NCBI GenBank assembly: GCA_018813765.1
Contig: JAHJBC010000006.1
Coordinates: 496,001-560,000 of the forward strand
DNA: 64,000 nucleotides
Origin: Gammaproteobacteria bacterium
GTDB taxonomy: Bacteria > Pseudomonadota > Gammaproteobacteria > Burkholderiales > Gallionellaceae
Direction of reading: 5' to 3'
Shown here: positions 18,998 to 31,168 of the stretch, in pieces
Layout of the letters: each line of letters starts with the position of its first letter
Numbering within the stretch: the stretch's first letter is position 1
Made by a program: the position numbers and the translations under genes
The notes under the pieces: generated by a model
The model's input: the letters and a program-made list of their open reading frames with translations, nothing else
Told to the model about the DNA's origin: nothing
The model's database searches: none

Positions 18998-19951
18998 TTA
19001 CACGCTGTGGATACGATCGAGGAAGCGCGCGCGGTAGAGCAGGCGGGGGCAGGAAGTTTCGTCGGCGAAGGCGGCGCGGTCGTGCAGTACGTTGTTGCAC
19101 AGCAGGCCCATGCCGGGTTCGAGGCGGGCCTGGTAGATGTACGGCGAGTCGGATGCCAGCAGTTGCTCCAGTGCGGCCACGGCCGCCAGCGTGGCTGCGT
19201 CCTGTTTCCAGACGATGCTGCGCGTGCGGGCGGTGTAGCGCATGTGCAGGTGTCCCTTGGCGTCGAGTGAGAACACCGGGCCGCTTTGGGCCGGGCGCAC
19301 GCCGGCGGCCTCGTCCACGCGCTCCGGGATGGTCATCGCATCGGGTTGCATCAGGGCGTAGATGTGTTCTGGGTTCTCTTCGCGCAACAGCAGGTAGGCC
19401 ATCTCATGGTCCATCAGGCGGTTCTCGCCGCCGCTGGCGGCAGCACGCACGCAGTGCAGCACCATGCCGCGTATCTGGCGATCCAGCGGGTTGTAGTAGC
19501 CGTCGGTATGCCATTTGATCGGTTTGTCGGTGTAGGGGATGTAATGCTTGCGTGTGCCACCTTCGAACACTTGTATCGAGGAGATACCATCCTCTCCAGC
19601 CAGCCAGTTGGCGTCCAGTTGAACCAGTCCAAACTGGGCGCCCACCAGGCGCAGGAGTTCCGTGTCGCCGCCGGTGAAATTGCCGGCGTAGATCGCCATG
19701 TTGCAGCGGCGGATGCGTTCGGACAGGGCGTCGTGCTCGTGCGGCAGCAACTTGCGCGGGTCGCGCACATCGACGACCAGTTCTTCGGCCGAGAGGGGGG
19801 CGGCCGATAGTTTCTGCTCGCGCCAGCGCCGGTAGCTTTCGAGATCGTTCAGGTCGAAAGGTCCGCCCATGGTTGCTCGCGTAACGAGTCGGTCGCTTCC
19901 GCTTGCGGGCGAGGATTGAGCTGAGGTGGCAAGAGTTGAAGTTTTCTGCAT
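18998..19951 (-). CDS. TauD/TfdA-type Fe(II)/2-oxoglutarate dioxygenase
   Basis: 317 residues. The iron facial triad is visible as HTD in IKWHTDGYYNP and a distal His in LLCNNVLHDRAAF; the 2-oxoglutarate Arg is likely in CPRLLYRARF. The start at 19951 lies 5 bp after the preceding stop, so it is the last gene of the minus-strand operon divergent from dsrA. TauD-like enzymes often hydroxylate sulfonates to release sulfite, which would suit a sulfur operon, but the substrate is unproven and the protein is not a close TauD match. Confidence 0.78.
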   Translation of the reverse strand: MQKTSTLATSAQSSPASGSDRLVTRATMGGPFDLNDLESYRRWREQKLSAAPLSAEELVVDVRDPRKLLPHEHDALSERIRRCNMAIYAGNFTGGDTELLRLVGAQFGLVQLDANWLAGEDGISSIQVFEGGTRKHYIPYTDKPIKWHTDGYYNPLDRQIRGMVLHCVRAAASGGENRLMDHEMAYLLLREENPEHIYALMQPDAMTIPERVDEAAGVRPAQSGPVFSLDAKGHLHMRYTARTRSIVWKQDAATLAAVAALEQLLASDSPYIYQARLEPGMGLLCNNVLHDRAAFADETSCPRLLYRARFLDRIHSV

Positions 19952-19956
19952 GCCGT

Positions 19957-20553
19957 TCAGTCCCCGCCCATGGCCGCGCGGCGGCGCGGCTTCTTCGGTT
20001 CGACCTCGTACAGGCCGCGCAGGGTCTTTTCGACCATCTGCACCGCTTCGGGCGCTTCGAAACTGATCATCGGGTCGATGACCCATTTGGCGTCTTCTTC
20101 GCTCAGCACGTTGCTGATGCAGAACGCGAGATAGCGGTAGAAACCGTATTCGGGGCCTTTCTCGTCATAGCCGAAATCGGCGTATTCACCGGCACGCTGG
20201 TTAATCAGGTCGATAAAACGCTGTTTGCATCCCTTGAGGTCATCTTCCAGCAGGCGGCTGCGGTTCTCGGCGTAGGTCTCGGCCACGCGGTTAGCCAGGT
20301 TGCCGGTAAAGGAGGCACGGTCTTCGGCCGACAGGTCGCGGTAGGCGATGCGGTCGGCGACCAGGATGAGGAACACCAGGAACTCGGCGAGGAAGTCAAG
20401 GTACTGCGGGCCGACCTCGATCTCGAAATCGGCCTTGCGCGTATTCTTCAGCGCGTTGTCGGCGATGCGCGAGACGGTGAAGGCCAGCGCATCCGATATC
20501 TCCTGCGGAGTATGGACGCGGCCTTCCTTGTGCCAGTTGCTTTTGATGCGCAT
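19957..20553 (-). CDS. Conserved-looking protein of unknown function in the dsr-divergent operon
   Basis: 198 residues, mostly helical, with a moderately hydrophobic stretch YLDFLAEFLVFLILVADRIAYRD near 50-70 that could be a membrane-associated helix. The C-terminus is basic (KKPRRRAAMGGD). No enzymatic motif recognised. It is 11 bp downstream of the double TusA gene and 5 bp upstream of the dioxygenase, so it is co-transcribed with them. Confidence 0.7.
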   Translation of the reverse strand: MRIKSNWHKEGRVHTPQEISDALAFTVSRIADNALKNTRKADFEIEVGPQYLDFLAEFLVFLILVADRIAYRDLSAEDRASFTGNLANRVAETYAENRSRLLEDDLKGCKQRFIDLINQRAGEYADFGYDEKGPEYGFYRYLAFCISNVLSEEDAKWVIDPMISFEAPEAVQMVEKTLRGLYEVEPKKPRRRAAMGGD

Positions 20554-20564
20554 CAGTGTCCGGT

Positions 20565-21044
20565 CTAACCCTTGCGGATGTAGAACTCGTGTACTCCGGC
20601 GCCCGCTTCGACGGTGTTCAGCAGGGTCATGCCGGTAGCGGAAGCCCAGCCGCCGATGTCGGATTGCACGCCGGGGCAGTCGCTGACCAGCCTCAGCACT
20701 TCGCCGGTCTGCATGCCGTTCAGCAGTTTCTTCGCTTCGACAATGGGGCCGGGGCAGACGGCGCCGCGGATGTCCAGTGTGACGTGGGCATGCGGTAATT
20801 GAACGCCGCTCTGGCCCTTCTGGATATGGTAGCCGGTGCCGCCATCAGGCATCTTTTCGGTCTTCAGGATCTGGTTGCCGGTCAGTTTGGCCCAGGCGAA
20901 CAGGTCGTCAGGCGTGCCGGGGCAATCTGAAACCAGCAGCAATATCTGGCCGGGGGAAAGCTCGTCCACCATGCGTTTGGCGCCGATGAGGGGCCTTGGG
21001 CATGACAGCCCTTTCATGTCGAGTACTACGTTGACCATGTCCAT
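20565..21044 (-). CDS. Fused tandem TusA-domain protein
   Basis: About 159 residues made of two TusA domains. The first has LDMKGLSCPRPLIGAK and the second LDIRGAVCPGPIVEAK, each with the CPxP carrier Cys. Each also has a second Cys in a matching place (LLVSDCPG and LRLVSDCPG). The ATG at 21044 has GGAG 6 bp upstream; a TTG 12 bp earlier is the alternative. A two-domain TusA could hold two sulfane sulfurs or relay sulfur between its halves; that is inference. Confidence 0.88.
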   Translation of the reverse strand: MDMVNVVLDMKGLSCPRPLIGAKRMVDELSPGQILLLVSDCPGTPDDLFAWAKLTGNQILKTEKMPDGGTGYHIQKGQSGVQLPHAHVTLDIRGAVCPGPIVEAKKLLNGMQTGEVLRLVSDCPGVQSDIGGWASATGMTLLNTVEAGAGVHEFYIRKG

Positions 21045-21078
21045 CTGTGTCTCCAATCAGTATTTGGAAAACCTTCTG

Positions 21079-21178: not shown

Positions 21179-21508
21179 TTAATACCCGCCCTTGCCCAAA
21201 GGCTGAGGCAGTCCGGCGATCTTGGCGGCCTGCTTGGCTGGGCCGACCGGGAACAGGTCGTACAGCGCCTTGCTGTCCGCTTCCGGCCAGAATTCGTTGA
21301 CGCCCTTGAGCATGTTGCGGAAATTCGGGGTGTGGCCGTTTTCCTTGTATTCTTCGCGCATGTAGTTGATGACTTCCCAGTGCTTCGGGGTCAGCTCGAT
21401 GCCTTCAGCGGCGGCGATCACGTTCACCACCTCTTCGCTATAGTCGGGCTCCAGCAGATATCCTTCATCATTGGTTTCCAACTCGTTTCCTGCAACTGTG
21501 TATCCCAT
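21179..21508 (-). CDS. DsrC/TusE paralogue lacking the C-terminal cysteines (RspA-like)
   Basis: 109 residues, clearly homologous to the DsrC at 26115-26450 along its length (EGYLLEPDYSEEV, TPKHWEVINYMREEY, LYDLFPVGPAKQAAKIAGLPQP). The true DsrC ends KQACKIAGLPKPTGCI. Here the first Cys is Ala and the tail is LGKGGY, so neither redox Cys is present. It cannot carry a trisulfide. Cys-less DsrC homologues have been proposed as regulatory sulfur-related proteins. It lies 22 bp downstream of the Cas6-like gene. Confidence 0.88.
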   Translation of the reverse strand: MGYTVAGNELETNDEGYLLEPDYSEEVVNVIAAAEGIELTPKHWEVINYMREEYKENGHTPNFRNMLKGVNEFWPEADSKALYDLFPVGPAKQAAKIAGLPQPLGKGGY

Positions 21509-21530: not shown

Positions 21531-22112
21531 CTATTCAAGATCGGTAATCACCTTGTAAGGCACAAAGATGCCACAACCAAATTGTCTTCCCGTTCCCATG
21601 CCCGCGCATTGCAGGCGGATGGAATCATCCGGTTTGAGGTCATGCACCACCAGACTGAAGCCGCTGATCGATTGCATGTCATCGCTCAAGGTGCGGCGTA
21701 TGCCGCAGATCGTGTTGGCGCTGATCTCCAGTGCGGAAAAATGCGCCAGCACCGATTCCATGAACTCCGCTTCATCCTCCCCGCCTGCAGCCAATTGGGC
21801 ATGCAGTGTGGGGTAGGGCTGCAGTTCCCTTAACTTCATGTCCCCGACGGAGAGGGGGTTTTTCAATATCTCCAACTGCGTCCCTGCCAGCCTTGCAGCC
21901 TCATCCGTCAGGGAGACCGGCAAGCGCAAGATCAGCTTCGCGCGCTTGTTTAGCAGGATCAGGTCTTTGTTTTCAGAACCTTTCAAAGGCAAAACGCCGA
22001 CATTTTCCTTGTCCGCCAACTGCGGCACCAGTCTGACCAGTTCTGCCCACAGGGCGAAGGGATAGCCGACTGGCAGCTTCTCCCCGCGCAGGTCGAACAC
22101 CAGATCGATCAT
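21531..22112 (-). CDS. Cas6/Cmx6-like RNA-binding protein, orphan (no CRISPR nearby)
   Basis: 193 residues. Both ends resemble the Cas6/Cmx6 family: an N-terminal ferredoxin-like strand (IDLVFDLRGEKLP) and a C-terminal glycine-rich loop GMGTGRQFGCGIFVP, as in RAMP endoribonucleases. The central LILRLPVSL and PTLHAQLAAG also fit. The N-terminal His-Gly-Tyr I associate with catalytic members is not obvious (VGYPFALW), so activity may be lost. Start at ATG 22112; a GTG at 22133 overlapping the upstream stop is an alternative. Lies between the 71-residue protein and the DsrC-like gene, with no array or other cas gene seen. Confidence 0.65.
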   Translation of the reverse strand: MIDLVFDLRGEKLPVGYPFALWAELVRLVPQLADKENVGVLPLKGSENKDLILLNKRAKLILRLPVSLTDEAARLAGTQLEILKNPLSVGDMKLRELQPYPTLHAQLAAGGEDEAEFMESVLAHFSALEISANTICGIRRTLSDDMQSISGFSLVVHDLKPDDSIRLQCAGMGTGRQFGCGIFVPYKVITDLE

Positions 22113-22129
22113 TTCGACCGCAGGCCTGT

Positions 22130-22345
22130 TCACTCCTGCTCCTGCGCTATTACCCAGCGCTGCATTACGGCAGCCCATTCGCCGGCCGTGGCCGGATCGA
22201 TGTCGAAAATGGTGAAACGCTTGCCTTCGCGGATGCGGACGCGCAACATGCTCATCCCGTCTTCGGCGTGGTCGATCTGTTGCAACTCGATCTGCTGCCC
22301 GCCCAGCGGGACGTTTATCTTGCCCAATTCGGTAATTTTCGCCAT
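22130..22345 (-). CDS. Small 71-residue protein heading the dsr-divergent operon
   Basis: Predicted beta-rich small soluble protein (MAKITELGKINVPLGGQQIE, then MLRVRIREGKRFTIFDIDP). GGGAG precedes the ATG. No family recognised. The downstream Cas6-like gene starts at or just after its stop, so the two are translationally coupled and may act together. Confidence 0.7.
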   Translation of the reverse strand: MAKITELGKINVPLGGQQIELQQIDHAEDGMSMLRVRIREGKRFTIFDIDPATAGEWAAVMQRWVIAQEQE

Positions 22346-22630
22346 GCTCTCTCCCGTTTTCTATGGATCGGACAGCGAACCGACTAACCCGATGAATGCG
22401 CGCAAGTCTAGCGCCAATGACGCCCGTTTTGGAATACTACCGGGGAAGGGAAATGCACCCCCCTTAGGGGTTACTTTGGATAGCCGCTACGGGTGATGGT
22501 TAGCCTTGGTGCAGAGCCGTAACATGCGGGACCATCAAGAAACCGGGTCGGTGAAGCTTGCCAGAACCTGAACGATAACCGAATTCCAGCCCTGTCGGGC
22601 GACTGGCGTAACGCGACGAAAGGAAACACT
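22346..22630. promoter_or_regulatory. Divergent regulatory region between the Cas6-like operon and dsrA
   Basis: The 285-bp gap must drive both operons. It contains an imperfect dyad CCCC-TTA-GGGGT at 22460-22471, similar to CACC-TAT-GGGGT upstream of tusA. No clear sigma-70 -35/-10 pair is visible for dsrA, so activation is likely. Confidence 0.45.
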
Positions 22631-23926
22631 ATGGCGAAGAAGATGCATGACACACCGAATCTGGACGAGCTCGAAAAGGGCGAATGGCCGAGTTTTGTGA
22701 CTGGCCTGAAGCGTCTGGCCAAGGACAAGGACATCGCGGTCGACCTGCTCGGCCAACTTGAGGCTTCTTACAAGACCCGCAAGGGCTACTGGAAGGGCGG
22801 CACAGTCGGCGTGTTTGGTTATGGCGGCGGCGTGATCCCGCGCTTCACCGAACTGAAGAACCCCGACGGCACTCCCCAGTTCAAGGACGCGGCCGAATTC
22901 CACACCCTGCGCATCATGCCCCCGGCCGGCATGCACTACGATACCGACACTCTGCGCAAGTTCTGCGACATCTGGGACAAATACGGTTCCGGCCTGATTG
23001 CGATGCACGGCCAGTCCGGCGACATCATGTTCCAGGGTTGCACCACCGAGAACGTGCAAAAGGCCTTCGACGAATTCAACGAGATGGGTTTCGACCTCGG
23101 CGGCGCGGGCCCCGCACTGCGTACCTCGATGTCCTGCGTCGGCGCGGCGCGTTGCGAGCAGTCCTGCTACGACGAAGCCCAGGCGATGCGCGCGGTCATC
23201 AACTCCTTCCTCGACGACCTGCACCGTCCTTCGCTGCCTTACAAGGTCAAGTTCAAGTTCTCCGGTTGCCCGAACGACTGCATGAACGCGATCCAGCGTT
23301 CCGACATCGCGATCATCGGTACCTGGCGCGACAACATCCGCACCGACGAAGCGTTGGCCAAGAAGTGGTTTACCAAGCACGGCATGGACGAACTGGTTAA
23401 CGACGTGGTTGCGCGTTGCCCGACCAAGACATTCCAGCTCAAGGAAATCGGCAAGATCAAGTCCGGCGAGCACATCTCCAGCGTCAAGGTGAGCGACACC
23501 CATGCCGTCGAGATCGACAACCAGGACTGCGTACGCTGCATGCACTGCATCAACGTGATGACCGGCGCACTGGCTCCCGGCAAGGATAGCGGCGCAACCA
23601 TCCTGGTCGGCGGCAAGAGCCACCTCAAGATCGGCGGCCTGATGGGCACCGTGGTGATCCCGTTCATGAAGCTGGATAGCGAAGAGGATGTCGAGAAGCT
23701 GGTCGACTTCGGTCAGCGCCACATCGATTTCTTTGCCGAAAACGCGCTGGAGCACGAGCGTTCCGGCGAGATGATCGAGCGTATCGGCATGGCCAACTAC
23801 CTTGAGGCGATGGAGCTTGACGTCGATCCTGCGATGATCAGCTCGCCACGCATGAACCCCTACGTCCGTACCGACGGTTGGGACGACGAAGTCGCCAAGA
23901 TCAAAGCCAAGAAGCAAGCAGCTTAA
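22631..23926 (+). CDS. dsrA: Reverse-type dissimilatory sulfite reductase alpha subunit
   Basis: 431 residues. Siroheme-[4Fe-4S] ligands appear as C169-x5-C175 (SCVGAARC) and C213-x3-C217 (SGCPNDCMN). A ferredoxin domain with CVRCMHC is near residue 300. With DsrB it oxidises DsrC-bound sulfane sulfur to sulfite in the cytoplasm. The oxidative direction follows from the neighbouring dsrEFH and dsrL and the sox genes. RBS AAAGGAAA; 12 bp to dsrB. Confidence 0.96.
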   Translation: MAKKMHDTPNLDELEKGEWPSFVTGLKRLAKDKDIAVDLLGQLEASYKTRKGYWKGGTVGVFGYGGGVIPRFTELKNPDGTPQFKDAAEFHTLRIMPPAGMHYDTDTLRKFCDIWDKYGSGLIAMHGQSGDIMFQGCTTENVQKAFDEFNEMGFDLGGAGPALRTSMSCVGAARCEQSCYDEAQAMRAVINSFLDDLHRPSLPYKVKFKFSGCPNDCMNAIQRSDIAIIGTWRDNIRTDEALAKKWFTKHGMDELVNDVVARCPTKTFQLKEIGKIKSGEHISSVKVSDTHAVEIDNQDCVRCMHCINVMTGALAPGKDSGATILVGGKSHLKIGGLMGTVVIPFMKLDSEEDVEKLVDFGQRHIDFFAENALEHERSGEMIERIGMANYLEAMELDVDPAMISSPRMNPYVRTDGWDDEVAKIKAKKQAA

Positions 23927-23938
23927 GGAGATAAGAAG

Positions 23939-25018
23939 ATGAATGCACCCGTACAGATGCGCAAGCCGAAAGAGTCTGGCGTACCGGACAACAAGAAATA
24001 CCTGCACCCGGTTCTGGCCAAGAACTACGGTAACTGGAAATATCACGACCGTCCCCGTCCCGGCGTGCTGCACCATGTGGCCCACAGCGGCGACGAGGTG
24101 TGGTCGGTGCGTGCCGGTACGCAGCGCCAGATGGACGTTTACACCATTCGCACGCTGTGCGATATCGCCGACAAGTTCGCCGAAGGTCGCGTGCGCTTCA
24201 CCATCCGTTCCAACATCGAGTTCATCCTGTCGGACGAGAAGAAGGTCGCTCCGCTGATCGCCGAGTTGAACAAGCACGGCTTCCCCGTGGGCGGCACCGG
24301 CAACTCGATCACCATGATCGCGCACACCCAGGGCTGGCTGCACTGCGACATCCCCGGCACCGACGCTTCCGGCGTGGTGAAGGCGCTGATGGACGAACTG
24401 GTCGACGAGTTCAAGCGCGAAGAGATGCCCAACCGCGTGCACCTGTCCACCTCCTGCTGCGAAATCAACTGCGGCGGCCAGGCCGACCTCGCCATCATCG
24501 TGCAGCACACCAAGCCGCCGGTCATCAACCATGACCTGGTCGCCAACGTGTGCGAACGTCCGGCCGTGGTTGCGCGTTGCCCGGTCGCGGCGATCCGTCC
24601 CGCCATGGTCAACGGCAAGCCTTCGCTGGAGATCGACGAGACCAAGTGTATGTGCTGCGGCGCCTGCTACCCTCCGTGCCCGCCGATGCAGATCAACGAT
24701 CCGGAGAACTCCAAGCTGGCCATCTGGGTCGGCGGCAAGAACTCCAACGCCCGCGGCAAGCCCACCTTCATGAAGATGGTCGCTTCCGGCCTGCCCAACA
24801 ACGCGCCGCGCTGGCCCGAAGTCGGCGCCGTGGTGAAGAACATCCTCACCGTGTACAAGGCAGATGCGCGTCCGTGGGAGCGTATTGCCGACTGGATCGA
24901 CCGTATCGGCTGGCCGCGTTTCTTCGAGAAGACCGGACTGCCGTTCACCAAATACCTGATCGACGACTGGCGTGGTTCGCGTACCAACCTGAACGCTTCG
25001 ACACACATCCGTTTCTGA
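23939..25018 (+). CDS. dsrB: Reverse-type dissimilatory sulfite reductase beta subunit
   Basis: 359 residues. Siroheme-cluster cysteines are in STSCCEINCGG and the paired CPVAAIRP region. A ferredoxin domain carries CMCCGACYPPCP near residue 240. Forms the alpha2beta2 enzyme with DsrA and docks DsrC. Short spacing on both sides shows it is inside the dsr operon. Confidence 0.96.
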   Translation: MNAPVQMRKPKESGVPDNKKYLHPVLAKNYGNWKYHDRPRPGVLHHVAHSGDEVWSVRAGTQRQMDVYTIRTLCDIADKFAEGRVRFTIRSNIEFILSDEKKVAPLIAELNKHGFPVGGTGNSITMIAHTQGWLHCDIPGTDASGVVKALMDELVDEFKREEMPNRVHLSTSCCEINCGGQADLAIIVQHTKPPVINHDLVANVCERPAVVARCPVAAIRPAMVNGKPSLEIDETKCMCCGACYPPCPPMQINDPENSKLAIWVGGKNSNARGKPTFMKMVASGLPNNAPRWPEVGAVVKNILTVYKADARPWERIADWIDRIGWPRFFEKTGLPFTKYLIDDWRGSRTNLNASTHIRF

Positions 25019-25031
25019 GCGAGGGCATGGT

Positions 25032-25391
25032 ATGAAATTCGGTATCGTCGTCAACGAGGGGCCATATCAGCATCAGGCCAGCGACTCGGCCTATCTGTTC
25101 GCCAAGGCCGCCATCGAGAAGGGGCACGAAGTATGGCGCGTGTTCTTCTATCACGATGGCGTCAACAACGCGTCCAAGCTCACCGAGCCGCCGCAGGATG
25201 ACCGCCACATCGTGAATCGCTGGACCAAGCTGGCGGAAGAGCACAAGGTTGACCTGGTGGTGTGCGTCGCAGCGGCGCTGCGTCGCGGCATCAAGGAAGA
25301 CAACCTGGCGCAGGGTTTCCGCATCTCCGGTCTGGGGCAACTGGTGGAAGCCGGCATCAAGTGTGACCGTCTGGTCACCTTCGGCGATTAA
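25032..25391 (+). CDS. dsrE: DsrE, sulfur-transfer subunit of DsrEFH
   Basis: 119 residues of the DsrE/TusD fold (MKFGIVVNEGPYQHQASDSAY). The conserved active Cys is in LVVCVAAALRRGI near residue 78. In the DsrE2F2H2 hexamer it takes sulfur from TusA and passes it to DsrC. dsrEFH marks the sulfur-oxidising version of the Dsr pathway. Confidence 0.95.
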   Translation: MKFGIVVNEGPYQHQASDSAYLFAKAAIEKGHEVWRVFFYHDGVNNASKLTEPPQDDRHIVNRWTKLAEEHKVDLVVCVAAALRRGIKEDNLAQGFRISGLGQLVEAGIKCDRLVTFGD

Positions 25392-25403
25392 TGGAGAGAC
25401 GGA

Positions 25404-25769
25404 ATGAGTGACGCTAAAAAATTCATGTTCGTCAACCGCAAGGCGCCTTACGGCACGATCTACGCGCTGGAGTCGCTGGAAGTGGTGTTGATCACCGCCG
25501 CCTTCGACCAGGACGTGTCGCTTGCCTTCCTGGATGACGGCGTATATCAGTTGAAGAAGGGTCAGCAGACCAAGGGCATCGAGACCAAGAACTTCTCGCC
25601 CGCCTACCGTGCGCTGGAAGACTACGACATCGAGAAGCTGTATGTCGAAAAGGAAGCCATGGATGCGCGCGGGCTGTCCGAAGACGATTTCATCGTGCCT
25701 GTCACCGTGCTCAGCCGTGCCGAAATGGGCAAGCTGATGGACGAGCAGGACGTGGTCCTGAGTTTCTAA
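25404..25769 (+). CDS. dsrF: DsrF, subunit of DsrEFH
   Basis: 121 residues of the DsrF/TusC fold (FMFVNRKAPYGTIYALESLEVVL; KKGQQTKGIE). No catalytic Cys is expected in this subunit and none is visible. Good RBS (GGAGAG), 12 bp after dsrE and 9 bp before dsrH. Confidence 0.94.
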   Translation: MSDAKKFMFVNRKAPYGTIYALESLEVVLITAAFDQDVSLAFLDDGVYQLKKGQQTKGIETKNFSPAYRALEDYDIEKLYVEKEAMDARGLSEDDFIVPVTVLSRAEMGKLMDEQDVVLSF

Positions 25770-25778
25770 GGGGGAAGC

Positions 25779-26075
25779 ATGTTACATATCATCAATCAAT
25801 CGCCCCTCAACACCACCACGCTGGACACCTGCCTGAGTACGGCGACCGGCGGAGACATCCTGCTGATCGAAGACGCGGTCTACGCGGCGACCAAGGGCAA
25901 CGCTGCCGAAGCGAAGCTCAAGTCTGCCATGGGCAAGTTCAAGGTGCATGTGCTGACGCCAGACCTGGAAGCGCGCGGTCTTGGCGACCGCATGATGGAC
26001 GGCGTCTCGGCAGTGGACTACGGCGGTTTCGTCGAGCTGGTGTCGAATAACAAGAATTGCCAATCCTGGCTGTAA
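25779..26075 (+). CDS. dsrH: DsrH, subunit of DsrEFH
   Basis: 98 residues of the DsrH/TusB fold (MLHIINQSPLNTTTLDTCL, GDILLIEDAVYAA). Ends NNKNCQSWL. Completes the DsrEFH sulfur-transfer hexamer. A 39-bp gap with GAAGGAG leads into dsrC. Confidence 0.94.
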   Translation: MLHIINQSPLNTTTLDTCLSTATGGDILLIEDAVYAATKGNAAEAKLKSAMGKFKVHVLTPDLEARGLGDRMMDGVSAVDYGGFVELVSNNKNCQSWL

Positions 26076-26114
26076 TCAGAATCATTAATTGCTACGCACA
26101 GAAGGAGAATCGAA

Positions 26115-26450
26115 ATGCCGAACATCGAAGTCGCTGGTAAGAGCTACGAAACAGACGAAGAGGGTTACCTGGTCAATCTGTCCGACTGGAACACCGACGT
26201 CGCCAACTACATGGCACAGACCGAGAACATCACCATGACCGACCAGCATTGGGAAGTCGTCAACTTCCTGCGCGAATACTTCGAAGAGTATCAAATTGCT
26301 CCGGCAGTGCGCGTGCTGACCAAGGCTATCGGCAAGAAGCTGGGCGCCGAAAAGGGCAACAGCGAATATCTGTACGGTCTGTTCCCGTACGGCCCCGGCA
26401 AGCAGGCGTGCAAGATCGCCGGTCTGCCCAAGCCCACCGGCTGTATCTAA
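26115..26450 (+). CDS. dsrC: DsrC, two-cysteine sulfur carrier and substrate of DsrAB
   Basis: 111 residues ending KQACKIAGLPKPTGCI, with both conserved cysteines on the flexible C-terminal arm. DsrC receives sulfur from DsrEFH, presents it to DsrAB and is recycled through DsrK as a trisulfide or disulfide. Strong RBS (AAGGAG). Followed by a palindromic repeat before dsrM, which may keep DsrC expression higher than the membrane complex. Confidence 0.96.
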   Translation: MPNIEVAGKSYETDEEGYLVNLSDWNTDVANYMAQTENITMTDQHWEVVNFLREYFEEYQIAPAVRVLTKAIGKKLGAEKGNSEYLYGLFPYGPGKQACKIAGLPKPTGCI

Positions 26451-26455
26451 AAGAC

Positions 26456-26545
26456 AGTGCTGAGTGCTGAGTTCTGAGTGCCGGGTAGCCGGCGCTCTCC
26501 GACTCAGCACCCTGAACTTGGCACCCAGAACTCAGTACTCAAAAC
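26456..26545. repeat. Complex palindromic repeat between dsrC and dsrM
   Basis: Repeated 7-mers of the type agtgctg on the left arm face gaactcagtact-type sequence on the right across about 90 bp. It interrupts an otherwise tight operon and is a candidate mRNA processing or attenuation site. Confidence 0.65.
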
Positions 26546-26551
26546 GAATAT

Positions 26552-27280
26552 ATGAGCACACTCTTCGCGATCCTGTTTTACTTTGCGACACTCGCGTTCG
26601 TCGTGGGTTTGTTCTATCGCATCAGCGTCTACGCCCGCACGCCGTCTCCGCTGAAGATACCCACCACTCCCGCGCCGACCACCACGGGTGGCGTGGTGTT
26701 GCGCATGACGCGCGAGGTGGTGTTCTTCGAGAGTCTGTTCAAATCCAACCTGTGGATATGGGGCCTGGGCATGCTGTTCCATGCCAGTCTGGCGCTGGTC
26801 GTGCTGCGCCATCTGCGCTATTTCACCGATCCCGTGTGGGGTTGGGTCGTTTTCGCCCAGCCGTTCGGCATGTATGCCGGCATCACCATGCTGCTGGGTC
26901 TGCTCGGATTGTGGGCACGCCGCCTGCTGGTCGAGCGCATCCGCTACATCTCCACGCCGTCCGATCATCTGATGCTGGTATTGCTGATCGGCATCGCCGT
27001 TTCCGGACTGATGATGACTTTCGTCGCGCACACCGATGTGATCGCGGTGAAGGGATATTTCCTCGGTCTGATGCATTTCAATGTGCAGATGCTCCCGTCC
27101 GACCTGTTGCTGGGCGTGCATCTGTCACTGGTTGTAGCACTCCTGGTTGTGTTCCCCTTCAGCAAATTGCTGCACGCACCAGGAGTCTTTTTCTCACCGA
27201 CACGCAACCAGAAGGACGATCCGCGCGAGCATCGCCATCTGAGTGCGTGGGCTGCCAAATTCGAATCGGAGAAGAACTGA
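26552..27280 (+). CDS. dsrM: DsrM, dihaem cytochrome b-type membrane subunit
   Basis: 242 residues with about five membrane helices, related to nitrate reductase gamma subunit (NarI). Haem-ligand histidines are likely in FHASLALVVLRHLRYF and GVHLSLVVALLVVFPFSKLLH. Part of DsrMKJOP, which links the DsrC disulfide cycle to the quinone pool. The stop is 1 bp before dsrK. Confidence 0.92.
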   Translation: MSTLFAILFYFATLAFVVGLFYRISVYARTPSPLKIPTTPAPTTTGGVVLRMTREVVFFESLFKSNLWIWGLGMLFHASLALVVLRHLRYFTDPVWGWVVFAQPFGMYAGITMLLGLLGLWARRLLVERIRYISTPSDHLMLVLLIGIAVSGLMMTFVAHTDVIAVKGYFLGLMHFNVQMLPSDLLLGVHLSLVVALLVVFPFSKLLHAPGVFFSPTRNQKDDPREHRHLSAWAAKFESEKN

Positions 27281-27281
27281 T

Positions 27282-28811
27282 ATGGCAGATATCGTAGCGC
27301 CAGCCTACCGTACCATCCCCATCATCCCCGCGCTGATACCCGGCGCGATGGAAGGGAAGGGCCCGTTCGTCGCCAACGAAAAGATCAATGAGGCGCTCGG
27401 CTTCCCCGGTCAACTGGTGGAAGACTGGCACGACAAGGCCATCGCCAAGATGGGCGAGTTGTTGTCCAAATACCGTTCGTTCAGGGTGTTCATGGATGCC
27501 TGTGTGCATTGCGGCGCCTGCACCGACAAGTGCCACTACTTCATCGGCACGCAGGACCCGAAGAACATGCCGGTGGCACGTCAGGACCTGATGCGCAGCG
27601 TGTACCGCCGTTACTTCACCCTGCCGGGCAAACTGTTCCCCAAACTCGTCGGCGCACGCGATCTGACGCGCGAAGTGCTGGACGAGTGGTTCAACTATTA
27701 CCACCAGTGTTCCGAGTGCCGTCGTTGTTCGCTGTTCTGCCCCTACGGCATCGATACCGCCGAGATCACCATGGCGGCGCGCGAGATCCTCGACTCCATC
27801 GGCTACGGCCAGAAGTATTCCAACGAGATCATCGGCAAGGTGCACAAGATCGGCAACAACCTCGGCCTGCCCGGCCCGGCGCTGGTCGACACGCTGGAAG
27901 GTCTGGAAGAGGATGTCAAGGACGCCACCGGGCTCGACGTGCGCTTCCCCATGGACGTGAAGGGCGCCGAAGTGCTGCTGATCACGCCGTCCGCAGACTT
28001 TTTCGCCGAGCCGCATATCGAGAGCCTGATCGGCTATGCCAAGGTGTTCCATGCCACCGGCACCAGCTGGACGCTGTCCTCGATGGCTTCCGAGGCGGGC
28101 AACTTCGGCATGTTCATCGGCAACTACGAACAACTGCGCAAGATCGCGCTGCGTATCCGCGAGGCGGCGCTGGAACTCGGCGTCAAGCGCATCGTGGTCG
28201 GCGAGTGCGGCCATGCCTGGCGCGTGGCCTACAGCTTCTGGAACACGCTTTCCGGCGTCGGCAGCGGCGCGGACGAAGTGGACAAGTTCGCCCAGATGCT
28301 GCAGAAGCAGCTCGACCACCGCTATCGCCAGCCCACGCATATCTGCGAGTTCACCTGGGACAAGATCCAGCAGGGCGCGCTGAAGTTCGACAAGTCGGCC
28401 AACGACAAGCACATCATCACCTTCCACGATTCGTGCAACGTGGCGCGCGGTTCGCGCATGGGCGACCTGCCCGGCGGCCAGTTCGAGATCCCGCGCAACA
28501 TCATCAAGGCGGTCGCCAACAATTTCGTCGAGATGGCCCCCGGCACCACGCACGCGCAGACTTTCTGTTGCGGCGGCGGCGGCGGCGTGCTGACCGACGA
28601 CCTGCTGGAACTGCGCGTCAAGGGCGCGCTGCCGCGCATGGAAGTGTTGCAGCAGTCCGTGGACGAGTACGGCGTCAATTTCATGGCAACCATCTGTGCC
28701 ATCTGCAAGGCGCAATTCACCAAGGTTTTGCCCATCTACGGTTTCGACCGCAAGATGGTGGGCGGAGTACATCAACTGGTCAGCAACGCGATCCAGCTGG
28801 GTCCGAAATAA
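27282..28811 (+). CDS. dsrK: DsrK, heterodisulfide reductase-like FeS subunit
   Basis: 509 residues. Two [4Fe-4S] motifs (CVHCGACTDKC near 75 and CSECRRCSLFCP near 145) and a CCG-type motif FCCGGGGGVL near 430, as in HdrD. It is the cytoplasmic subunit that reacts with DsrC. The ATG at 27282 directly follows the dsrM stop. Confidence 0.95.
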   Translation: MADIVAPAYRTIPIIPALIPGAMEGKGPFVANEKINEALGFPGQLVEDWHDKAIAKMGELLSKYRSFRVFMDACVHCGACTDKCHYFIGTQDPKNMPVARQDLMRSVYRRYFTLPGKLFPKLVGARDLTREVLDEWFNYYHQCSECRRCSLFCPYGIDTAEITMAAREILDSIGYGQKYSNEIIGKVHKIGNNLGLPGPALVDTLEGLEEDVKDATGLDVRFPMDVKGAEVLLITPSADFFAEPHIESLIGYAKVFHATGTSWTLSSMASEAGNFGMFIGNYEQLRKIALRIREAALELGVKRIVVGECGHAWRVAYSFWNTLSGVGSGADEVDKFAQMLQKQLDHRYRQPTHICEFTWDKIQQGALKFDKSANDKHIITFHDSCNVARGSRMGDLPGGQFEIPRNIIKAVANNFVEMAPGTTHAQTFCCGGGGGVLTDDLLELRVKGALPRMEVLQQSVDEYGVNFMATICAICKAQFTKVLPIYGFDRKMVGGVHQLVSNAIQLGPK

Positions 28812-28826
28812 CGAGGAGAAGCAAAC

Positions 28827-30800
28827 ATGTCAGCAGCAAGCGAAACCCCGCAAAAGCTCACGTTCCGTCGATACAAGGACGGCAACAATCAGGTCAAGCG
28901 CCTGAACGACAAGATCTTCCAGGCCGGCTGGTCGTACAAGTGCCCGACCTATGTCCAGTCCACGCCGCCCTGCCAGGGCAGCTGCCCGGCGGGTGAGGAC
29001 ATCCGCAGCTATCTCGGCATCGTGCGCGGCACCGAGAAGGTGCCAGTCGGCGCGGACGGCAAGACGCCGATCATGCCGTGGCAGGAATATGCCTGGCGTC
29101 GTCTGACCGAAGCCAACCCGTTCCCCGCCGTGATGGGCCGCGTGTGCCCGGCACCGTGCGAGAGCGGCTGCAACCGCAACGAAGTGGAAGACCATGTCGG
29201 CATCAACTCGGTCGAACACTTCCTCGGCGAGTATGCGATCGCCAACAAGCTCAAGTTCGTCAAGCCCGACGTCAAGTCCAGCGGCAAGAAGGTCGCCATC
29301 CTCGGCGGCGGTCCCGCCGGCCTGTCCTGCGCTTACCAACTGGTGAAGATGGGCCACGACGTCACCGTGTTCGACGAGCATGAACAGCTCGGCGGCATGA
29401 TGCGCTACGGCATCCCCGGTTTCCGTACCCCGCGCGAAGTGCTCGACGCGGAGATCCAGCGCATCCTCGATCTCGGCGTGAAGACCCGCCTGAAGACGCG
29501 TGTCGGCAGCGACATCACCATGGATCAGATCAACAAGGAATTCAACGCCGTGTTCCTCGGCATGGGCGCACAAGCCGGTCGTGCGCTGCCCATCGCCGAC
29601 AGCGCAGCCCCCAATGTGGTGACCGCGACCGCCTTCCTGCAAGCCTTCAACGAAGGCCGTCTGCAGCATGTCGGCAAGCGTGTCGTGGTCGTGGGCGGTG
29701 GCGACACCTCCATCGACGTGGCGACCGTCGCCCGCCGTCTGGGCCACATCAAGTCCGCCAAGCCGACCGATGCCGAAGCAGCCATCGCCGGACGCATGGC
29801 GCACGACGTTGCCGAGATCTCCGCCAAGGAAGGCGCCGAAGTTGCGCTGACCTCCGTGTTCCCCATCGACCAGATGCAGGCCAACAAGCACGAGATCGAG
29901 CAGGCTCAGGCCGAAGGTATCTACATCCTCGGCGGTCTGGCTCCGGTCGCCGTGGTCAAGGACGCCAACGGCCGCGCCACCGCGCTGCGCGTCGCCAAGT
30001 GCGAAGCCAAGTTCGTCGGCGGCCGTCTCGAGATCAAGAACATCGAAGGCAGCGAGTACGATATCGAAGCCGACCTGATCGTTTCCGCGATTGGCCAGGC
30101 TGTCGACTTCGCCGGGCTGGAAGCTTTCAACAACGGCAAGGGTGCTGTCTCTACCGACCGCAACTATGTGGTGAACGGTCAGAAGGGCGTGTTCGCCGGT
30201 GGCGACGTGATCCGTCCGCACCTGCTGACCACTGCGGTCGGCCACGGCTCCATCGCTGCCGACGGCATCCACAATTTCATGATGGGCAAGGATCTGGAGA
30301 AGCGTCCCAAGATCGACGTGCACCAGTTCGACCTGATGCGCAAGCTGGCCGAGAAGGGGCTGGAGCCGAAGCTGGCGGAAGAGCCGATGCGCGGCACCTG
30401 CTTCACCAACCAGGCGGTGCACAACTTCGACAACCGTTCCGACCGCTACATCATTCCGCACGACAAGCTGTTCCTCGGTCACTTCGGTTACACGCCGCGC
30501 AACATCCGCAGCGTGGTCACGCTGGACAAGCAGAGCGCGCTGGGCAACTTCCAGGATCGCCTCGGCGTGCTGGACGAGAAGGAAGCCGTGGCCGAAGCCA
30601 AGCGCTGCATGAGCTGCGGCATGTGCTTCGAGTGCGACAACTGCGTGGTGTATTGCCCGCAGACCGCCGTCTCGCGCGTGAAGAAGACCGAAGCGACGCT
30701 GGGCCGCTACGTCACGACCAACTACGACAAGTGCATCGGCTGCCACATCTGCGCCGACGTGTGTCCGACCGGTTATATCCAGATGGGTCTGGGTGAGTGA
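28827..30800 (+). CDS. dsrL: DsrL, FeS flavoprotein NAD(P)H:acceptor oxidoreductase
   Basis: 657 residues, related to the glutamate synthase small subunit. N-terminal cysteines are in CQGSCPAGEDI and CPAPCESGC. An FAD site GGGPAGLSCAY is near 155 and a second dinucleotide site VVGGGDTSIDVA near 290. The C-terminal ferredoxin part has CMSCGMCFECDNCVVYCP and CIGCHICADVCPTG. It couples DsrAB electrons to pyridine nucleotide and is needed for oxidative Dsr function. The stop overlaps the dsrJ start by 1 bp. Confidence 0.94.
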   Translation: MSAASETPQKLTFRRYKDGNNQVKRLNDKIFQAGWSYKCPTYVQSTPPCQGSCPAGEDIRSYLGIVRGTEKVPVGADGKTPIMPWQEYAWRRLTEANPFPAVMGRVCPAPCESGCNRNEVEDHVGINSVEHFLGEYAIANKLKFVKPDVKSSGKKVAILGGGPAGLSCAYQLVKMGHDVTVFDEHEQLGGMMRYGIPGFRTPREVLDAEIQRILDLGVKTRLKTRVGSDITMDQINKEFNAVFLGMGAQAGRALPIADSAAPNVVTATAFLQAFNEGRLQHVGKRVVVVGGGDTSIDVATVARRLGHIKSAKPTDAEAAIAGRMAHDVAEISAKEGAEVALTSVFPIDQMQANKHEIEQAQAEGIYILGGLAPVAVVKDANGRATALRVAKCEAKFVGGRLEIKNIEGSEYDIEADLIVSAIGQAVDFAGLEAFNNGKGAVSTDRNYVVNGQKGVFAGGDVIRPHLLTTAVGHGSIAADGIHNFMMGKDLEKRPKIDVHQFDLMRKLAEKGLEPKLAEEPMRGTCFTNQAVHNFDNRSDRYIIPHDKLFLGHFGYTPRNIRSVVTLDKQSALGNFQDRLGVLDEKEAVAEAKRCMSCGMCFECDNCVVYCPQTAVSRVKKTEATLGRYVTTNYDKCIGCHICADVCPTGYIQMGLGE

Positions 30801-31168
30801 TGAGACTGCTCGCGACTTTGCTGCTGTGCCTGTGCATCCCGCTGGCCTGGGCTGCCGAGGCGAACGCGCCCAAGCTGGACACCGGCAAGGGCGGGGAATG
30901 CGTGAAGGATACGCAGTGGATGCGCAAGAACCACATGCACATGCTCAAGCACCAGCGCAACGAGACGGTGCGCAAGGGTGTGCGCGTGGAGGCCGAAGCA
31001 TTGAAGGCCTGCGTTGAATGCCATGCCAGCACGCAGGACGACAGCGTGACGGCGCGCGCAGACAGTTTCTGCGTCGGCTGCCACCGCTATGCCGCAGTCA
31101 AGATCGATTGCTTCGAATGTCACGCCAGCAAACGCAAGGAAGCGCTCGCCAATAAGGACGTCAAATGA
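30800..31168 (+). CDS. dsrJ: DsrJ, triheme cytochrome c
   Basis: 122 residues with a signal peptide or anchor (LLATLLLCLCIPLAWA) and three CxxCH motifs: CVECH, CVGCH and CFECH. It is the periplasmic haem subunit of DsrMKJOP. The ATG at 30800 shares a base with the dsrL stop (TGATG); a GTG one codon earlier is less likely. Its stop overlaps dsrO. Confidence 0.94.
   Translation: MRLLATLLLCLCIPLAWAAEANAPKLDTGKGGECVKDTQWMRKNHMHMLKHQRNETVRKGVRVEAEALKACVECHASTQDDSVTARADSFCVGCHRYAAVKIDCFECHASKRKEALANKDVK

Follow-up and report, generated by a model that had tools for sequence, protein, structure and literature searches.

Cas6/Cmx6 proteins of type I-MYXAN and I-B CRISPR loci are crRNA-processing RAMP proteins, and they share with the protein considered here the profile, the Cas6 fold and a GhGxxRxxGhG loop. 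CRISPR-linked examples are found on cyanobacterial plasmids, whereas copies linked to dissimilatory sulfur (dsr) genes adjoin dsrA in 157 of 159 genomes and form a separate clade, in which the presumed catalytic His is often lost, the basic surface is remodelled and the net charge is near zero. The copy studied here lies in a 64-kb stretch of DNA from a member of the Gallionellaceae, which as a whole is called the window in the following. In contrast to the Cas6/Cmx6 proteins of CRISPR loci it has no array in the window and no cas1 or DevR-type Cas7 match in its genome. The closest solved structure, the type I-B CAST Cas6 8fcj (TMq 0.85), likewise lacks the N-terminal His and carries an Asn instead. 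8fcj itself, however, belongs to the Cascade complex of a CAST and keeps the basic residues at positions 106 and 175 as well as an extra Lys.

A natural Cas6 without catalytic His has also been described for Sulfolobus solfataricus (Sso1437). According to passages of PMC3652601 it resembles the window protein in this respect but is still a crRNA-processing nuclease, for which RNA recognition is held to be as important as catalysis. Since a Cas6 without this His can still cut RNA (PMC3652601, same passages), the residue is not strictly Cas6-defining. The use of Cas components outside adaptive immunity is a known theme, as seen in parts of PMC8730458 and PMC12669027; the exaptations treated in the former concern modules or CRISPR RNAs, as opposed to a single Cas6 in a metabolic operon here. 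The neighbourhood itself has been drawn before: the legend of Figure 3B in PMC10989796 places cas6 in a gene map of dissimilatory sulfur genes from mangrove MAGs, one dsr-bearing MAG being from Burkholderiales, and the map shows the same cas6-among-dsr arrangement as the window. The main text of that paper uses "cas6" once, in this legend, and "CRISPR" never, and we found there no comment on the gene and no analysis of its homology, linkage or function. In open-licence full text we found no account of the conservation, ancestry or function of dsr-linked cas6; the relevant parts of other texts that hold both Cas6 and dsr terms deal with ordinary CRISPR loci or marker lists. The cas6/dsr neighbourhood is thus already drawn, while we found no account of its conservation, ancestry and function.

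The gene occupies positions 21531-22112 on the minus strand and encodes a Cas6/Cmx6-family protein of 193 aa that belongs to the dsr-linked clade. Its open frame spans 21531-22178 (minus strand). The ATG at 22112 is the likely start, since a frame opened at the earlier ATG would run into the gene upstream and the relatives align from 22112. An earlier sequence-only reading had assigned the family by eye, and this call was right: the protein scored 145.7 bits against TIGR02807 (cas6_cmx6; cut-off 98.85) and 174.5 bits against PF09559 (Cas6; cut-off 26.7 bits, E 3e-51), and it matched six PADLOC Cas6 models. The DLRGxxLP strand and the GMGTGRQFGCGIFVP loop named in the same reading are both present; the C-terminal glycine-rich loop with its basic residue reads GMGTGRQFGCG in the window protein. 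The range of 21531-22345 given there for the feature also takes in a second gene at 22130-22345, which encodes DUF6967.

Structure prediction agreed with the profile searches. At E<=0.001 the sole sequence relative in the PDB was 8fcj_B, the Cas6 of type I-B CAST, with 27% identity (E 2e-13 for the longer frame, 1e-12 in a second search). The AlphaFold model of the protein (pLDDT 80.5, pTM 0.79) is poor over the last 20 residues, which include the G-rich loop. Its top Foldseek match was again 8fcj_B (E 2e-15, TMq 0.85), other Cas6 chains scoring lower. Of the 14 matches at E<=0.001, 12 came from entries for Cas6, Cse3 or Cascade and two were SerB2 phosphatase. By Foldseek the predicted model has the RAMP (two-RRM) fold of solved Cas6 proteins. 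RAMP/Cas6 matches were therefore obtained by profile and by structure alike, and the product of 21531-22112 is a true Cas6 homologue in sequence and predicted fold. The dsr-linked proteins of one genus (L076-L078) reached 218.6-221.6 bits against TIGR02807, more than the other dsr-linked proteins and inside the range of the CRISPR-linked ones (160.8-255 bits). TIGR02807 was probably trained partly on a dsr-linked seed sequence; through such a seed the label "CRISPR-associated" would spread to dsr clusters.

The Cas6-like gene is part of a minus-strand operon facing dsrA that comprises DUF6967, the Cas6-like gene, a 198-aa protein and a TauD-like gene, in many cases along with a Cys-less DsrC and with TusA-TusA. 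In the window these are DUF6967 (PF22295 by Pfam; 71 aa, 22130-22345), the Cas6-like gene, a DsrC-family protein without cysteine assigned by sequence and profile (21179-21508), a tandem TusA-domain protein with two TusA domains by profile and an uncertain start (20565-21056), a 198-aa protein without Pfam or NCBIfam match that is kept in nearly the same place (19957-20553), and a TauD-family dioxygenase-like protein assigned by profile, whose true start is probably inside the frame 18998-20086. A divergent promoter region (22346-22630) separates DUF6967 from dsrA (22631-23926, plus strand; TIGR02064, E 5e-146), the first gene of the divergent dsr operon. The further dsr genes at 23939-31168 (plus strand) were assigned by gene order, the profile test covering dsrA alone; we take them to be dsrB, E, F, H, C, M, K, L and J. 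The Cys-less DsrC-family protein, the double TusA, the TauD-family member and the divergence from dsrA are all as the earlier reading had described them. Relatives of the DsrC-like protein were free of any Cys in 119 of 144 cases (overlapping loci included), as is the window protein. The Cys-less homologue is presumably RspA, on which we found no paper in open-licence full text. The position of the 198-aa protein is nearly constant in dsr clusters, even where Cas6 is lost. Two genomes of one family (loci L137, L143) have an unusually high-scoring DsrA (598 bits) and a TauD gene between dsrA and Cas6, and show no DUF6967 match.

The linkage to dsrA was surveyed in a family set of 158 genomes, an order sample of 399 and a phylum sample of 398. 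In the family Cas6 exceeded the cut-off in 88 of the 158 genomes. For dsrA this was the case in 85 genomes, or 88 when three partial matches at contig ends (G114, G143, G152) were kept and weaker ones dropped. Both genes occurred together in 85 genomes, Cas6 alone in 3, dsrA alone in 3 and neither in 67 (Fisher p 7e-37); two of the genomes with dsrA only (G094, G029) break at contig ends. A divergent dsrA was present on the same contig for 86 of 91 family Cas6 matches, with a median gap of 570 bp and a largest gap of 4963, and DUF6967 lay on the same strand within 100 bp for 90 of the 91. The five unlinked matches are situated as follows: in G128 and G118 the start of a divergent dsrA is visible at the contig end; in G039 and G153 Cas6 lies near a contig end, most of dsrA ending another contig in G153; in G009 a short contig carries the match and the remaining operon genes, and a second match, a contig-end fragment, is linked to dsrA.

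The order sample contained Cas6 in 80 of 399 genomes and dsrA in 87 (E<=1e-60). All 80 Cas6 genomes have dsrA, and Cas6 was found in 0 of the 312 genomes without it. The 71 Cas6 loci from outside the family were all inspected, and in each of them dsrA is divergent from the Cas6 operon, a contig-end case (L136) included. In total 157 of 159 surveyed Cas6 genomes carry a divergent dsrA on the same contig, and the two exceptions have their Cas6 close to the end of a contig, such that the linkage is conserved. The Cas6-like gene beside the dsr genes is no oddity of a single genome. In the phylum sample, scored for Cas6 alone, only 5 of 398 genomes had the gene, all from this order, a count that speaks only weakly for its absence from other dsr-bearing classes. 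No relative was found in the sets viral_contigs and phages. Order genomes also held twelve further dsrA copies (L176-L187); in the sequence retrieved around them, none of the window's dsrB, DUF6967 and Cas6 had a match.

Within the operon the partnerships are loose. Seven order genomes have dsrA but not Cas6; in two of them (G276, G299) a contig end cuts the dsr cluster, leaving five genomes from three families with real Cas6-less clusters. Cas6 is therefore dispensable in some lineages. All five keep DUF6967: G238 together with TusA-TusA and the 198-aa gene; G286 with these and additionally TauD and a DsrC-like gene with one Cys; G369, G427 and G455 with the 198-aa gene and TauD. Conversely, in the stretch around Cas6 a DUF6967 match is missing from nine genomes, seven of which belong to one family and two to a second, and a match to the Cys-less DsrC is missing from eight. 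Since each is found without the other, an obligate partnership of Cas6 with either protein is not supported. Cas6 and DUF6967 distances were correlated over 76 loci even when DsrA was accounted for (partial r 0.54, a value reached in 0 of 300 permutations), the corresponding values for Cas6 with the DsrC-like, 198-aa and TusA neighbours being 0.26, 0.40 and 0.16. As DUF6967 and DsrC-like distances give 0.39, this covariation is suggestive only.

DUF6967 was modelled with a pLDDT of 91.2. The predicted order of secondary structure, beta-beta-beta-beta-alpha, fits that of a PUR repeat, a fold that binds single-stranded nucleic acid. Of the 15 leading Foldseek rows, 10 were PUR-alpha chains (TMq 0.58-0.69, E 0.19 at best), but no row reached 0.001, and the first row was a mitoribosome chain (E 0.12). 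A sequence match was not found, nor did open-licence full text yield a paper on DUF6967.

A quick tree was calculated from the 97 rows that remained of 132 after thinning at 80% identity, using SH-aLRT support only, a small outgroup and no inferred root. The 89 dsr-linked rows lie on one side of a branch with support 100 and eight CRISPR-linked rows on the other. Seven of the eight are from cyanobacterial plasmids: six have cas3 or further I-MYXAN genes as neighbours, and the seventh belongs to a type IV locus. The eighth is 8fcj. The copy on a Gloeobacter plasmid (L191) was considered as a second non-CRISPR case and rejected, PADLOC finding type IV cas genes around it; a PAPS-reductase-family gene lies among these genes, most of which are annotated as hypothetical protein.

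The general location of the catalytic His of Cas6 is given in parts of PMC3150331 and PMC3652601, and for this subfamily we infer its position from conservation. Seven of the eight CRISPR-linked sequences have a His there. Among 124 distinct dsr-linked sequences, a few of which may be the same gene with another start call, we counted 65 Tyr, 52 His, 4 Asn, 2 Phe and 1 gap. The window protein has Tyr17 where the His is expected after the first strand. The expected N-terminal His is thus indeed missing from the window protein, as had been noted, but this is no general trait given the 52 dsr-linked sequences that keep it. On the tree the Tyr state needs 8 changes, at least 5 of them forced by starred branches.

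Basic residues were both kept and exchanged. R63 is invariant in dsr- and CRISPR-linked sequences (124 of 124 dsr-linked), and R176, present in 116 of the 124, is nearly invariant in both groups. Positions 104, 106, 123 and 175 and an extra Lys are basic in 6 to 8 of the 8 CRISPR-linked sequences versus at most 33% of the dsr-linked ones, whereas R57, R95 and K187 are basic in 98-100% of the dsr-linked versus 1 or 2 of the 8 CRISPR-linked sequences. The net charge dropped from +6 to +10 in seven CRISPR-linked proteins to a mean of -0.8 (-8 to +5) in the dsr-linked ones; it is -6 for the window protein and on average -1.4 for DUF6967. The basic surface of dsr-linked Cas6 is remodelled.

We searched for a conserved RNA target in the dsr clusters. 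For 33 divergent regions no consensus RNA structure was obtained, only one weak 3-bp hairpin on the Cas6 strand. Folding of dsrA leaders gave mean z values of -0.09 (33 loci) and -0.48 (41 loci) and nothing consistent (74 of 138 regions). Between 85 and 155 nt upstream of dsrA the mean z was -1.1 (41 loci, other families), and the equivalent stretch ahead of the Cas6 operon gave -0.84, a signal that fits a DNA palindrome. Seven kinds of spacer were folded as single sequences (first 60 loci of each, 25 shuffles). Three were more stable than their shuffles, namely DsrC/DsrM (z -2.1, 57 loci), DsrB/DsrE (-1.9, 28 loci) and TusA/DsrC-like (-1.6, 52 loci), while the mean z of the remaining four was between -0.6 and +0.3. 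By eye the stable spacers vary in sequence from locus to locus; it is possible that they harbour an RNA target. Synonymous-site conservation in 15 genes showed mild peaks (dsrK codons 1-12 and 143) and no clear element.

These data leave the suggestion of the sequence-only reading, a Cas6 fold reused as RNA-binding regulator, perhaps of dsr mRNA, or as scaffold, only partly in place. Family, fold, dsr linkage, the lack of a cognate CRISPR system in our searches and the missing His of the window protein speak for it, and neither of the two outcomes it had named as refuting, no RAMP/Cas6 match or a nearby array, was observed. Its part on RNA binding and regulation of dsr mRNA is weakened by a divergent promoter without conserved RNA structure and by the loss of the net positive charge of CRISPR-linked Cas6. 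A nucleic-acid role is favoured by the predicted RAMP fold, the G-rich loop, the kept R63 and R176, the new R57, R95 and K187 and the stable folding of some dsr spacers; the PUR-like predicted fold of DUF6967, which is not significant, and the covariation of its distances with those of Cas6 count as suggestive in the same direction. Against such a role stand the absence of a conserved RNA target from our searches, the changed net charge and the fact that DUF6967 and Cas6 occur independently in certain genomes. On balance we lean slightly towards a domesticated Cas6 with a nucleic-acid-binding accessory role in the Dsr cluster. The stronger version, a fixed RNA-binding regulator of dissimilatory sulfur oxidation throughout the order that has a PUR-like partner and perhaps cuts RNA in His-bearing lineages, is tentative.

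With no conserved RNA target emerging from the searches, a role as protein scaffold has to be taken seriously as a rival reading. Here the Cas6 fold would be reused as scaffold, chaperone or assembly factor for Dsr or sulfur-relay proteins and have no nucleic-acid role. The shift of the net charge from positive to slightly negative would be explained, as would the loss of basic residues typical of CRISPR-linked Cas6 (104, 106, 175, the extra Lys and for the most part 123), and the Rfam, divergent-region and leader searches that yielded no conserved target; furthermore, sulfur-carrier genes share the operon. A pure scaffold fits less well with the kept loop and R63/R176 and with the new, near-invariant basic residues, all of which point to an anionic ligand, with the His retained at the catalytic position in many lineages, and with some dsr spacers that are more stable than shuffles. 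We consider it less likely than the nucleic-acid-binding accessory role, though a substantial possibility.

The divergent region carries a further conserved feature, the inverted repeat CACCCCCCTTAGGGGTTA at 22456-22473, which is the window's version of an ACCC-N4-GGGT repeat of dsr promoters. Among 77 thinned divergent regions the strict form ACCC-N4-GGGT occurs in 39 and CCC-N4-GGG in 63, and the density of the strict form is 1.6 sites per kb in the divergent region versus 0.019. Allowing at most 3 mismatches, the window repeat has three matches in the genome, compared with 1 for a reversed control pattern: one in the dsr promoter, one in the gap that separates sat from a molybdoenzyme gene, and one ahead of soxY-soxZ. 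The two copies outside dsr are at C12:470394 (L201) and C12:490636 (L202). The repeat is probably a DNA operator of a sulfur-oxidation regulon. As an RNA hairpin target of Cas6 it was rejected: conservation concerns its sequence and not its pairing, further sulfur promoters carry it too, and looser copies occur in Cas6-less clusters.

An improbable variant is that the Cas6-like protein or its partner regulates at the DNA level by binding this repeat in the dsrA promoter. The enrichment in the divergent region, the absence of the strict form from all five Cas6-less dsr clusters (0 of 5) and the recurrence of the window version solely at the two other sulfur loci would agree with it. However, by eye looser copies are present in the promoters of all five Cas6-less clusters, and the repeat is therefore seemingly independent of Cas6. 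Inverted-repeat sites of this kind are usually bound by dimeric transcription factors, and the control pattern, too, gave a match in the genome.

Less likely still is a conventional nuclease that processes crRNA for CRISPR arrays at other places in the genome. As the earlier reading had stated, the 64-kb window holds no array: a scan for same-direction exact 18-mer repeats at CRISPR spacing and Rfam at gathering scores (0 matches) were both empty. In the genome, which comprises 3.1 Mb on 13 contigs and is 99.8% complete, profile searches found a single Cas6 match, no cas1 and no DevR-type Cas7; six weak matches to the cas3-core model all fell below the cut-off, and such sub-cut-off matches likewise occur in all 14 control genomes. 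Neither the array search in the window nor the cas1, DevR and cas3 searches in the whole genome thus found the gene to be encoded with a CRISPR system. In the family, DevR-type Cas7 was found in 0 of 158 genomes. The presence of cas1 in 33 of the 88 Cas6-bearing family genomes, and of the His at the catalytic position in the 52 dsr-linked sequences, could be taken in favour of a crRNA nuclease. But cas1 occurs in 66 of the 158 genomes, including 33 of the 70 without Cas6 (p=0.26), such that the Cas6-like gene in this family is not associated with cas1; it is tied to dsrA instead. This reading is largely refuted.

The dsr-linked copies are under purifying selection: the median dN/dS (NG86; pairs at 70-98.5% protein identity with dS under 1.6) was 0.151 over 118 pairs (range 0.039-0.33). 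A neutral passenger or decaying gene, as might be suspected from its absence in five dsr-cluster genomes of three families and from a conservation lower than that of DsrA, is therefore refuted by this selection and by retention in 80 of the 87 dsrA genomes of the order sample, no internal stop codon being found among the matches listed, and deserves hardly any credence.

We thus arrive, with a probability of roughly 95%, at a domesticated, non-CRISPR Cas6 that is fixed in the Dsr cluster. A cas6 of the type I-B/MYXAN kind would have left its CRISPR context and become a standing member of the operon facing dsrA, where purifying selection keeps it alongside the dsr sulfur-oxidation genes. We infer that the capture ran from CRISPR to dsr, the tree being without an inferred root. 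The RAMP fold may still bind nucleic acid or another polyanion, and the protein may act as accessory or regulator of the Dsr system, possibly together with DUF6967. In the window lineage binding would be likelier than cutting, because the presumed general-acid/base His is now a Tyr.

To all appearances the Cas6 relative is a CRISPR component that sulfur metabolism has taken over, with a putative role there. The NCBI model name "type I-MYXAN CRISPR-associated protein" masks a conserved component of dsr clusters. The gene clearly exemplifies, in a form open to testing, how one Cas protein by itself can be domesticated for metabolism, and natural His-bearing and His-less versions as well as natural losses are available for comparison. 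If it is active in the pathway, the present picture of Dsr regulation or assembly would lack a part that is carried by most dsrA genomes of the order sample (80 of 87). Should the protein indeed be an RNA regulator, CRISPR-type RNA recognition would be linked to a core energy pathway.
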